Origin: Candidatus Hydrogenedentota bacterium
GTDB lineage: Bacteria; Hydrogenedentota; Hydrogenedentia; Hydrogenedentales; JAEUWI01
Assembly: GCA_016791475.1 (NCBI GenBank)
Contig: JAEUWI010000050.1
Coordinates: 1-54,129 of the forward strand
DNA length: 54,129 bases
Reading direction: 5' to 3'
The translations under genes were made by a program, and so were the position numbers. Shown here piece by piece: positions 1 to 50,006 of this stretch (the first letter of the stretch is position 1; each line of letters starts with the position of its first letter). Below the pieces are notes generated by a model. It ran no database searches and was not told the origin of the DNA. It saw nothing but the letters and a program-made list of their open reading frames with translations.

Positions 1-391
1 TCGATGGGACCTCTTTTGGAAAGAATACTTGGCCCTACAGCACGCCGCTTGAGCGGTAGTATTAAAACTGCACCCTATCTTTTCCCGGTCAACTCACTTC
101 TATGGACCACGGAAAGGCACGGAATTTCACGGAAACGAACTTGTTCCACACCCCGTGGGTCGGTAATTGCTTATCAAAGGCAATCTTAGAGCCATCGTCA
201 TTTGCGCCAATTTGCGTAGATTTTCGGTCTAGAATTCCTGTTTTTGCCATGGTGGTGCGAGGCGACGGCCCGCCAAAGGAAGTTGGATAGAATATGATTG
301 TTTTTTCAGTATTGCGGGAAAAATGAATTCATGCTAGGGTAGCGAAATGAGGCAGTAACGCGGCGGGGTACCGCAATAAGGGAGTGGCAGC
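1..391. other. non-coding leader with two dispersed-repeat fragments
   Basis: No convincing gene is visible. Two pieces recur elsewhere in the window. A CACGGAA-rich stretch at 106-136 matches 10292-10320 closely. A TTTGCG-periodic stretch at 200-226 belongs to the 10-nt array family seen best at 39210-39241. A weak promoter-like pair, TTGCGG at 313 and TAGGGT at 336 with 17-nt spacing, lies before the next gene; this is only a guess. Confidence 0.5.
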
Positions 392-10173: not shown

Positions 10174-10460
10174 GAACCGCAAATTTACGCAGATTTGCGC
10201 AAATGAAAACCGACGTGGGAGCGGAAACCCATGCGCACGCAAAAGAATGTGAAATGATCGGTATGGGGGAGCGGTAATTAAAGGGGTATCGACCACGGAA
10301 GGGCACGGAACTTCACGGAAGGAGCTTATTCGAGTTCAACATTACCAACGCCCCGAACCCTGCAAACAAAAATCGACCTTTTACAGTCTGAATGAAATTT
10401 GCGAAAATTTGCGGTTCAACGCTTTTGGTTGTGTCCCAAGGTTGCCCCCCTTCCGTGGTC
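10174..10460. repeat. gene-less composite of two inverted dispersed repeats
   Basis: An array of 10-nt units reading GAACCGCAAATTTACGC at 10174-10204 has an inverted partner ending GCGGTTC at 10396-10417. Overlapping it, GACCACGGAAGGG at 10291-10303 has an exact inverted copy at 10448-10460. The first family is the one that brackets the GxxExxY gene at 39210-39869; here there is no gene between the arms. The second family recurs at 106-136. The rest of 9976-10540 holds nothing else I can name. Confidence 0.65.
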
Positions 10461-12177: not shown

Positions 12178-13036
12178 TGCCTCAACCTGAAAGGTTAAGC
12201 CACTTTCGGTGCACGTTGATGATGGTAATCGCGCAGTGATAATCGGCGAGCGCCTTGCTATACTCACCACGCAAGGAGACCTAGACCGATGGAAAGTTCT
12301 TCTGAAAACGAGGAGCTCAACGAGGTTCCGCATTCGCACTTCCTTCAGCGCGATTCGCCGGTTCAGATTGATCGGCGAAATCTTCCCCACTGGCGCCTCT
12401 CTGGAGTATTCAACTACGTCACCTGGCGCCTTTTTGATTCGTTGCCACAGGAAAAGCTCAACGCATGGCGCACTGAAAAGCATGCGTGGCTTATGCAGCA
12501 CCCGAAACCCTGGAATGCCTCCACTTCCAGCCAATACCGCGATCTGTTTCCAAAGCGACTGGATGGCTGGCTGGATGCGGGCTACGGTGGATGCTATTTG
12601 CGCAGAGCGGAGTGCGCTCAAATCGTCTCGAACGCTTTTCACTTCTTCGATGGCGTTCGCTACGACCTGGCATCTTACGTGGTCATGCCGAACCACGTGC
12701 ATGCGCTATTCCTGCTTCGCGACGGAATGGAACTGGAAAGGGTGACAGGGTCCATCAAGGGATTCACCGCCAGGGAAATCAATAAGGTGCTTGGGCGTAG
12801 CGGCACCCTGTGGCAACACGAAGGATTTGATCATCTCCTGCGTGGCGTACAGCAGCTTGAAGGTTGCCTTACTTACATTCGTAGAAATCCGGAGGATGCC
12901 GGGCTCAAAGCCGGAGAGTTTATCCACTACGAATCTCCCGGCTTCAAGGATTTTGAAAAGTGGCTTTGACCATCGAGTGAGCCTTTTTGCACACTCAATG
13001 TGCACCGAAAGTGGCTTAACCTTTCAGGTTGAGGCA
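12178..13036. mobile_element. RAYT-REP unit with perfect 36-nt terminal inverted repeats
   Basis: The 36 nt at 12178-12213 are the exact reverse complement of 13001-13036, and together they enclose the RAYT gene. Inside each arm, AACCT-gaa-AGGTT can form a 5-bp hairpin, as REP sequences do. Diverged relatives of the arm occur as gene-less inverted pairs at 28515-28672 and 35077-35232. A GTTGAGGCAAGAA fragment also occurs at 12069-12081. Together these look like an autonomous RAYT locus and its non-autonomous offspring. Confidence 0.85.
12289..12969 (+). CDS. REP-associated tyrosine transposase (RAYT, Y1 HUH family)
   Basis: A 226-aa product. The start has AAGGAG 10 nt upstream. Motifs of the Y1_Tnp/IS200-like HUH superfamily are plain: an N-terminal LPHWRLSGVFNYVTWRL strand, the metal-binding HUH motif as MPNHVHAL (H136, H138), and a catalytic Tyr at about Y196 in YIRRNPEDAGL, typical of RAYTs. 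RAYTs are single-copy domesticated transposases that cut and join single-stranded REP hairpins. The gene lies between perfect inverted REPs (12178-12213 and 13001-13036). It appears intact. Confidence 0.92.
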   Translation: MESSSENEELNEVPHSHFLQRDSPVQIDRRNLPHWRLSGVFNYVTWRLFDSLPQEKLNAWRTEKHAWLMQHPKPWNASTSSQYRDLFPKRLDGWLDAGYGGCYLRRAECAQIVSNAFHFFDGVRYDLASYVVMPNHVHALFLLRDGMELERVTGSIKGFTAREINKVLGRSGTLWQHEGFDHLLRGVQQLEGCLTYIRRNPEDAGLKAGEFIHYESPGFKDFEKWL

Positions 13037-22466: not shown

Positions 22467-22498
22467 AATTTGCGCTAATTTGCGTAAATTTGCGGTTC
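22467..22498 (+). repeat. solitary copy of the 32-nt array of 10-nt units
   Basis: Three in-phase units (AATTTGCGCT, AATTTGCGTA, AATTTGCGGTTC) match the arms at 39210-39241 and 39838-39869. No inverted partner is seen nearby. Confidence 0.75.
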
Positions 22499-37469: not shown

Positions 37470-37654
37470 CAATTGACAGTTGACAATGGACAATTGATAA
37501 CGGGGGGACACCTTCCATTTCCCAATGGCGCCGGTAAGTCCTATTCGACGGATAGGACTGATAGGACGGATCGGGTCAGCCAATTTCGTCGTATCAGACG
37601 AATCCGTCGGATGGCCCACTTCTTTGTTCATTGTCCATTGTTCATTGTCAATTG
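37470..37654. repeat. inverted-repeat element between pepF and hldE
   Basis: The arms 37470-37500 and 37624-37654 are inverted copies of 31 nt with about 6 mismatches, both built of GACAATGGACAAT-like units. Between them lie nested GGATAGGAC and TCAGAC periodic stretches (~37551-37613). It fills most of the divergent spacer (37423-37723). Confidence 0.6.
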
Positions 37655-39209: not shown

Positions 39210-39869
39210 GAACCGCAAATTTACGCAAATTTACGCAAATTATTTCTGCGACGTCGAATTATTCGCGTCAGAGCGTGGTCACGATCTAAAGTTGATGCCT
39301 GTAATACATCCTTCCGTTCGACATGAGTGTTTCTGACAGGGCCTGCGCACAGGCGATACGAAACAGACTTGAAGCGAGGGTTTGATATGGGAGAGGAGCG
39401 GAACGGGGCGAACGACTGGGTCGAGAACGACCTCGTTTACCAGATCATTGGTGCTGCCATGGCCGTGAGTACGGGCGTCAAGCATGGCCTGCGAGAAAAA
39501 ACATACGAGCGGGCCCTTATAGTGGAGTTGCAGCACCGGGGATTGAGGTGCGCAACTCAGCAACCTTATCCAGTCTACTACCGGGGTGAAAAGATCGACG
39601 ACTACATTCCAGACCTTGTAGTCGAAGGGCGGGTAATCGTTGAGACTAAGGTCGCCGAGAAGATAATTGACGATCACATAGGGCAGGTTCTCAACTACCT
39701 CAAAATCAGCGGGTTGGAAGTGGGCATAATACTTAATTTTCGCTACGCCAGCCTACAGCACAAGAAGGTAGTCTATCAGCCCAACCGGCAACGTTGACTA
39801 ATGCGAAGTGCAGAGCGCCCGAGTTTCATGCTATTCAAATTTGCGTTAATTTGCGAAAATTTGCGGTTC
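39210..39869. mobile_element. putative element: GxxExxY gene between inverted 32-nt arrays
   Basis: Left arm 39210-39241 (GAACCGC then AAATTTACGC units) and right arm 39838-39869 are inverted copies with 2 mismatches in 32 nt. Each is three in-phase 10-nt units. They enclose only the GxxExxY gene and its 145-nt leader. A gene-less composite pair (10174-10417), a solo copy (22467-22498) and a fragment (200-226) also occur, consistent with a mobile or amplified unit. No transposase is inside. Confidence 0.6.
39387..39797 (+). CDS. GxxExxY family protein
   Basis: A 136-aa product. The ATG at 39387 has GAGGG 7 nt upstream. The family motif G-x-x-E-x-x-Y is exact (G34, E37, Y40 in GLREKTYERAL). 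The rest matches the GxxExxY/PF13366 domain: an N-terminal IIGAAM helix, DDYIPDLVV, then VIVETKVAEKI, which has the D...E-x-K order of PD-(D/E)XK nucleases, and HIGQVLNYL. The function is unknown; a nuclease is suspected. The gene is flanked by near-perfect inverted 32-nt arrays. Confidence 0.9.
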   Translation: MGEERNGANDWVENDLVYQIIGAAMAVSTGVKHGLREKTYERALIVELQHRGLRCATQQPYPVYYRGEKIDDYIPDLVVEGRVIVETKVAEKIIDDHIGQVLNYLKISGLEVGIILNFRYASLQHKKVVYQPNRQR

Positions 39870-47653: not shown

Positions 47654-48256
47654 TTATTGATTGTTTCGCCTTCGCTCCGAACGCACGCGGTAAAGTCGCT
47701 CGGTGAAGCCGCCTTGTTCTTCAAAAGCTCGCGCTTGTGCTGCGATCTGGCGATTGAGCAGGCCGCACGCGACATTGATCAAAACCAGCGCGGCGTTGGC
47801 CGAGATTTCCGCGTTGGCCCGCGGGGGCTCCAGCGAAGTATAGAGCGCGGCGTGTTCTTTGCGATGGTCCACGACCCAAAGCGCGACATCATCGGCGGTG
47901 GTGCAGCGTCGCGCGACGAGCTCAGCGCGACGTGGGTCGTCCCCAGGCCAGAGTGCGAGGCTTCGGTGACGCAAAAAGTCCTCGTAGTCTTTCCGCAGCT
48001 CTTCCAGGCTTGACCGCGCCACGTTGGTCAGTTTCAGTTCGGTTTTCTTCGATGTACCGGAGGCCTGACTGCCCTCGACGATGTTTTGGACCCCGCTACG
48101 CGCCGCTTGAACCATCTGATCATGGGTGCGGCTCCGGCGATCAATATAGCGGTCGCAAAACCGCACCGTAACATCGTATGCGAGTTGAGCGACCTGAAAA
48201 CTCTTGAGCTTTCGGTACCCGCCGTGTTTAGGGAGTAGGGGTTCGTGCTCGGACAT
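47654..48256 (-). CDS. four helix bundle protein (23S rRNA IVP-type) with suffix domain
   Basis: A 200-aa product. Residues ~15-110 fit the four-helix-bundle/S23 family (SFQVAQLAYDVTVRFCDRYIDRRSRTHDQMVQAARSGVQNIVEG, then SRSSLEEL-like SSLEELRKDYEDFL). The extra C-terminal ~80 residues match the four-helix-bundle suffix domain (NAEISANAALVLINVACGLLNRQIAAQARAF). Relatives are encoded by intervening sequences in 23S rRNA, bracketed by inverted repeats. This copy is intergenic but likewise bracketed by 9-nt-period arrays. The ribosome site is weak. The function is unknown. Confidence 0.88.
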   Translation of the reverse strand: MSEHEPLLPKHGGYRKLKSFQVAQLAYDVTVRFCDRYIDRRSRTHDQMVQAARSGVQNIVEGSQASGTSKKTELKLTNVARSSLEELRKDYEDFLRHRSLALWPGDDPRRAELVARRCTTADDVALWVVDHRKEHAALYTSLEPPRANAEISANAALVLINVACGLLNRQIAAQARAFEEQGGFTERLYRVRSERRRNNQ

Positions 48257-48340
48257 GGATTGCCCCCGTGTTGGTGGAGTTGACTGGAGATCAGGCTACA
48301 CCCGTCGGAAGAATTTGGCAAGGAATATTTTGGACGAAAT

Positions 48341-48427
48341 GGACAGGGTGGACAGGGTGGACAGGGTGGACAGGGTGGACAGGGTGGACTTGGTCCACTT
48401 GGTCCACTTGGTCCACTTGGTCCACTT
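48341..48427. repeat. tandem 9-nt arrays forming a long hairpin
   Basis: Five GGACAGGGT units (48341-48385), then GGACTT, then four GGTCCACTT units (48392-48427). The GGAC and GTCC parts of the two arrays are complementary, giving a long imperfect stem. The second array is also the inverted counterpart of the 47602-47626 array across the four-helix gene. Confidence 0.8.
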
Positions 48428-48513
48428 GCCGAATGAGCCCGATTTCGCTATAATCCAGACCTACCGTTCGATAGGACGGCAGCCCCGCGTCCACTCCAAC
48501 CCACGAGGCCACC

Positions 48514-49866: not shown

Positions 49867-49918
49867 GTCAGACCGATTGGACCGATCAGACTGATCTGAT
49901 CGGTCCGATCTGTCTGAT
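49867..49918. repeat. hairpin of GATCGGTC-type units
   Basis: Arms 49867-49889 and 49896-49918 are inverted with 3 mismatches in 23 bp around a 6-nt loop. The sequence is a tandem of TCAGAC/CGATTGG/ACCGATC pieces. It starts 4 nt past the PqaA-like stop, so it could serve as a terminator. Confidence 0.65.
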
Positions 49919-50006
49919 CGGTCTGATGCCCTGCGCGAAAACTGGAAATGATTTTTCACCCGCGCTTCGGTGTACAATAGCGGCGACTACCAAGGAGCCG
50001 CAGACG

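Follow-up and report, generated by a model that had tools for sequence, protein, structure and literature searches.

A compact, apparently mobile DNA element in which a GxxExxY nuclease gene lies between inverted arrays of short repeats

A 660-bp unit of Candidatus Hydrogenedentota bacterium DNA, which holds a single GxxExxY gene between two inverted arrays of a short repeat, is probably (at a probability of about 0.6) a compact mobile element whose own nuclease is specific for the cores in its ends. The unit occupies positions 39210 to 39869 of the window, by which we mean the whole stretch of contig JAEUWI010000050.1 that was analyzed (54,129 nt). No function has been assigned to the widespread GxxExxY genes. 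The best reading of the analysis is a mobile element that would work in the manner of REPIN-RAYT, with a nuclease reading its own end arrays, and it looks like an undescribed kind of mobile DNA that is apparently widespread across many phyla. The initial annotation had suggested an uncharacterized element that the array delimits or spreads with, in which GxxExxY would be either actor or cargo; this suggestion is supported below and extends to many phyla. In a library of 5.39 million open-access papers two name GxxExxY, neither in connection with repeats, and none of six representative array sequences is reported there as a bacterial repeat. Most subscription journals lie outside this literature search, so an earlier description is possible.

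The window element and its repeat unit

The element and the related arrays of the window are as follows.

39210..39241, + strand: left arm, GAAC followed by 3 CGCAAAT cores every 10 nt (39214, 39224, 39234)
39387..39797, + strand: GxxExxY gene, PD-(D/E)XK nuclease of 136 aa with D76 and E86-x-K88
39838..39869, + strand: right arm, 3 ATTTGCG cores (39839, 39849, 39859), the inverse of the left cores, followed by GTTC
10174..10417, no strand assigned: gene-less pair of the window-element array type (3 left cores, 2 right cores) that encloses a CACGGAA-type array at 10293
22467..22498, + strand: solo right-hand array, AATTTGCG three times, then GTTC; no partner array was detected nearby in the window
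199..227, + strand: degenerate array of the right-hand type, differing from the three-unit pattern by 3 mismatches

The two 32-nt arms are 94% complementary, lie 596 nt apart and contain three 10-nt units each, as had been claimed from the letters alone. The ORF between them (ATG at 39387, stop codon ending at 39797) was confirmed as a GxxExxY gene by its matches to TIGR04256 (E 7.8e-37; 126.2 bits, curated cut-off 35) and PF13366 PDDEXK_3 (E 1.3e-33; 116.2 bits, cut-off 22). The window contains 16 matches to the two-unit pattern versus 0.45 expected, and the 7.7-Mb genome contains 38 three-unit arrays versus 0 for the reversed-pattern control, which also gave 0 in all genomes tested. It had been proposed further that the units are in phase with one helical turn. 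The spacing is indeed 10 nt here, but this is not general, and the occurrence of clades with spacings of 8 and 9 nt led us to reject the helical-phase reading. Among the other arrays noted at the outset, the gene-less pair and the single array are both real; an array is also present near position 200, but in degenerate form.

Several further repeats were observed in the window, where an Rfam search gave no match. Left-type CACGGAA arrays occur at 107, near the degenerate array, and at 10293 within the gene-less pair. A RAYT-like Y1 transposase gene (12289-12969) has its own long inverted flanks (score 39), which are unlike the short-unit arrays. Two 7-nt arrays of the four-helix type (CAATTGA and TTGTCCA-like; 37470-37497 and 37624-37654) enclose no gene, and a 9-nt array lies at 37547. 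At 49870-49927, 9-nt units of the TCTGATCGG type form a tight inverted pair.

Across the family the cores are 7 nt long, fit CRCNRAK or ACAGGAT (family consensus approximately CRCNRAK), mostly number 3 per arm and are spaced by 8, 9, or 10 nt, and the outer ends approximate AACC...GGTT. The median element length is 552 bp, and the median distance is 51 nt from the left arm to the assigned start codon and 24 nt from the stop codon to the right arm. Between the two arms of the same element the cores mismatch at 4.6% and the spacers at 36.5% (p 5e-71); the contrast is biased by the core-finding pattern, which fixes some positions, but mismatch is still only 16.5% at the core position left free. 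G-U pairs of the sense RNA are not in excess among the arm mismatches (88 vs. 103, p 0.31). Taken together, the conserved cores, the free spacers and the lack of G-U bias point to recognition of each core by its sequence, most simply as duplex DNA, rather than to selection for a stem.

Distribution of the arrays and their association with the protein

The window genome contains 6 GxxExxY genes and each of them lies between inverted arrays, with units that differ among the genes: an 8-nt unit (CTTTGCGC), two 9-nt units (CTTCGTGNN and CTCCGTGNN), and three 10-nt units (AATTTGCGNN, ATCTGTGNNN, and ATTCGTGTNN). The exact window unit is found at 1 of the 6 genes and inverted arrays of other units at the remaining 5. 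AATTTGCG is one of many units, and the pattern is far more general than first noted.

We then take the phylum as a whole, in which 58 of 68 genomes searched carry a GxxExxY gene. For the flank test one arm was sought within 450 nt on each side, and an inverted-repeat score of at least 14 was counted. Inverted arrays flank 91 of 106 GxxExxY loci (86%), which are the best-scoring family matches and not a random sample, versus 0 of 22 PIN-domain control loci and 24 of 400 swapped flanks (6%); the other 15 GxxExxY genes have no detectable arm pair. Only 2 of 176 window pseudo-genes have qualifying arms, and these are the window element and the RAYT region. Among named loci from many phyla inverted arrays were found at 53 of 76, the flanked ones mainly in Planctomycetota, Pseudomonadota, Chloroflexota, Bacteroidota, Acidobacteriota, and Thermodesulfobacteriota. 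The association is weaker in Verrucomicrobiota (3 of 9 loci), and none of 3 loci in Ignavibacteriota is flanked at the score threshold. Homologs lacking the array had been named as grounds for rejecting the idea. This ground would apply only if the array meant the literal, lineage-specific AATTTGCG; as to the architecture, most homologs in the two surveys above are flanked.

In Bacteroides fragilis Q1F2 perfect 33-nt arms sit tightly around the gene, between radA and the gene of an FAD-dependent protein. At this one site B. fragilis (L286) and B. finegoldii (L396) carry different unit types, and their proteins are about half identical by eye. Two named Hydrogenedentota records (L217 and L243) have arms that match those of loci in genomes G051 and G008, which makes Hydrogenedentota the probable phylum of the searched genomes. 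Further flanked copies are present in plasmid records, for which no close relatives without the flanked copies were found. One tblastn query detected no GxxExxY in phages, and PADLOC gave no match. Two variants of the ends were also seen. Some GxxExxY genes (L005, L435) have a whole short inverted pair on either side instead of one arm, resembling a composite element. At L390, L391 and L395 the ends are two-tier, with an outer CGCAAAT x3 and, after about 28 nt, an inner CGCGAAT x3, and such ends recur at several sites in the genome.

The unit follows the protein. A tree of 77 proteins needs 25 changes for the core (57.9 after shuffling, minimum 52), 8 for its second base/type (27.2 after shuffling), 3 for its last base (27.4) and 67 for the host genome (66.8); therefore the unit tracks the clade of the protein rather than the host. 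In the set from many phyla the core requires 16 changes versus 26.3 (minimum 21), and phylum also carries some signal there (25 vs. 31.6, minimum 26). These comparisons support co-evolution of unit and protein. Of the two roles left open at the outset, cargo or actor, the co-segregation favors an actor, or at least a specific partner, over chance cargo.

Array counts follow the same line. Genomes with the matching protein clade are rich in ATTCGTG arrays (68 genomes, Mann-Whitney p 1.2e-5), and at least 10 of these arrays occur in 5 of 6 genomes with the matching clade vs. 4 of 62 others; the p values for genome-wide array counts against the matching clade (1.2e-5 and 5e-6) are indicative only because the genomes are related. 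Exceptions exist in both directions: G025 and G036 have 89 and 54 ATTCGTG arrays and no detected member of the matching clade, and G061 has a clade member and no ATTCGTG arrays. ATTYGCG-type arrays number 66 in the window genome (G000) and 75 in G035 of the same genus, versus 2 and 1 in the same-genus G036 and G037. At the rfaE site, which is also that of the window element, G035 has an element whose protein is 65% identical to the window protein, with 3 CGCGAAT cores in its left arm and ATTAGCG, ATTCGTG, and ATTCGCG in its right arm (the window element has CGCAAAT throughout), and G036 and G037 have this site without an element. Either the cores of a single element have changed in concert between G000 and G035, or one element has replaced another at this site.

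Gene-less pairs, sister sites and the nuclease

The handful of gene-less copies in the initial annotation has to be corrected upward, since inverted pairs of the GxxExxY-element types without a gene number tens per genome, with precise ends and unrelated flanks. G025 contains 12 hairpins of about 75 nt with exact shared ends (approximately TTGAA-CCACGAAT...ATTCGTGG-TTCAA) in unrelated flanks. The gene-less pairs of the window genome have ends of about 38 nt in common and differing interiors, in which other array types are often nested. One clear decayed piece of GxxExxY (L375 in G013, 72% over 43 aa) and one weak one were found in gene-less pairs; the other sampled pairs contain no GxxExxY remnants. 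Target duplication was not found at any of 29 elements (no word of length at least 4 above shuffled flanks).

The initial annotation had asked whether sister strains lack the element, and 2 of 3 traced sites (L005 and L003) are empty with the neighboring genes kept, a comparison at gene level between sister species whose neighboring proteins are 72-83% identical. The L005 site spans about 1 kb in the window genome, and its two bordering genes lie about 80 nt apart in G037 and 43 nt apart in G036; G037 also has no element at the L003 site. The third site (L006, between oleA-like and oleB-like genes) has no element in G034, and in G035 and G037 arms of that type are kept but surround other content. 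This content is a 206-aa ORF without a Pfam match in G037 (L430) and a Mutator-family transposase in G035 (L431), and neither genome has a GxxExxY remnant there. The insertion sites in sister genomes (L415, L416, L409) contain no array. These sites support mobility of the element.

The suggestion of a PD-(D/E)XK-like motif holds for both fold and residues. The AlphaFold2 model is a confident PD-(D/E)XK fold (pLDDT 90.4); the nearest fold is the Cas4 protein SSO0001 (4ic1, Z 9.8), and SwaI and the Hjc Holliday-junction resolvase follow at Z 7-8 (5tgq 7.8, 1gef 7.3), the lower values reflecting a common fold only, which alone shows no function. A profile search of PDB sequences gave weak matches only, the second being T7 endonuclease I (1m0d, E 1.5). 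Among 107 proteins the catalytic D is present in 107, E or D at the ExK position in 105, and K in 106. In the 5 close pairs with estimable dS, dN/dS is 0.06-0.15, and therefore the enzyme is under purifying selection.

Proposed mechanism, alternatives and related systems

We infer that GxxExxY binds the cores, cuts, and by cutting moves the element. GxxExxY protomers would attach to the double-stranded cores at either end, draw the two ends together and cleave where the arrays stop, after which the element would be copied or moved to a new intergenic site without duplication of the target. Gene-less pairs with matching cores would be mobilized in trans by the same protein. We know of no precedent for a lone PD-(D/E)XK enzyme as a transposase.

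The main rival is an unseen mobilizer. The pairs would then be MITE-like and moved by a Y1/RAYT enzyme, another transposase or host repair, and GxxExxY would be a specific, maintained passenger that might, for instance, resolve the inverted ends or serve as a nuclease in addiction or defence. We regard this as rather unlikely. It would account for arms that surround unrelated content, for the many arrays of G025 and G036 where the matching gene was not detected, for the similar ends of the unrelated four-helix family, and for the absence of target duplication, which is also a feature of Y1-type movement. Core sequence and spacing, however, keep closely to the GxxExxY tree, a match that a passenger does not require, the RAYT of the window itself has different, palindromic flanks, and a non-exhaustive search found no other gene consistently sharing the arrays. 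A selfish, homing-like nuclease that cuts cognate arrays, so that the element is copied in by repair and the dispersed pairs are targets or relics, is less probable again. The PD-(D/E)XK fold is close to site-specific and junction nucleases, targets are not duplicated, and B. fragilis and B. finegoldii have elements of different type at the same site; but the arrays are ends on both sides of the gene, whereas an insertion would split a homing site, the sister insertion sites (see above) are array-free, and the G025 pairs have precise, transposon-like borders.

Two other readings fare worse. An RNA-level element, with arms that base-pair once transcribed and undergo RNase III processing like the intervening sequences of 23S rRNA, is very improbable: inverted ends around a small gene do recall the Coxiella IVS (PMC4990558) and the G025 pairs fold into strong hairpins, but the spacers are far more divergent between arms than the cores, sense and antisense wobble do not differ in the expected way, and Rfam found nothing in the window. 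Arrays that are operators or common intergenic repeats, with genes adjacent by coincidence, are the least credible of all. Gene-less arrays do exist in tens per genome; this reading is largely contradicted by the PIN-domain and swapped-flank controls, the empty reversed-pattern control, the co-segregation of core and protein tree, and the sister-genome sites without the element.

Among known systems REPIN-RAYT, the REP doublets and REP-associated tyrosine transposases (PMC3116915; PMC2817692), is the closest comparison, and RAYT is thought to act on REPINs (PMC3116915). As there, repeats of its own type flank the GxxExxY gene, inverted pairs without a gene occur in their tens elsewhere in the genome, several types per genome are each tied to one enzyme clade in the tree test, and no target duplication was found. 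In contrast, GxxExxY matches only PDDEXK_3 and GxxExxY profiles and is a PD-(D/E)XK enzyme instead of a Y1/HUH tyrosine transposase, its ends are short direct-repeat arrays instead of single imperfect palindromes, and its gene sits between two inverted ends. MITEs of DDE transposons are likewise short, non-autonomous inverted-repeat elements scattered between genes, but the 29 GxxExxY elements lack target-site duplication and the cognate GxxExxY element has no DDE transposase gene. The Coxiella IVS has a 28-bp terminal stem and the S23p gene (PMC4990558); such 23S rRNA insertions with an S23p/four-helix ORF share the small gene between inverted ends, whereas GxxExxY elements lie between protein genes and their core/spacer pattern does not suggest RNA-stem selection. 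Cas4, Hjc and type II restriction enzymes share the PD-(D/E)XK fold with conserved D and ExK and differ in genetic setting. Heptanucleotide repeats, such as the STRR of cyanobacteria and TAACTGA of Beggiatoaceae (PMC4679880), are also short-unit direct arrays between genes, patchy across phyla, but no link to a gene family or to inverted pairs is described there.

A broader claim, which is plausible and held more tentatively than the main one, is that these elements form a new class of transposable element across many phyla, with a stand-alone PD-(D/E)XK transposase and specificity in the end arrays, and that the TIGR02436 family shares the end architecture with 7-nt units. If true, many short intergenic tandem repeats of environmental genomes would be footprints of these two classes. 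From the main finding, the GxxExxY family gains a testable role in recognition of its own arrays and in mobility, a common class of intergenic repeats is offered an origin, and related nucleases with arrays differing by single core bases or 1-nt spacing provide a natural series for protein-DNA specificity. The 7-nt arrays of the four-helix family may bear on the heptanucleotide repeats.

Canonical four-helix (TIGR02436) genes (L037-L039, L076-L100), an unrelated family with similar end architecture, lie between inverted arrays of almost always 7-nt units at 19 of 22 loci in the same flank test. The longer four-helix proteins with a 'suffix' domain are mostly unflanked (1 of 16 flanked), and therefore the 7-nt association concerns the canonical family. 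The window contains such a 'suffix' gene with neighboring repeats (47654-48256 and 48340-48428), namely 9-nt tandem arrays (TGGACAGGG and ACTTGGTCC) 5' of its start and a short GTGGACGTG array beyond its stop codon.
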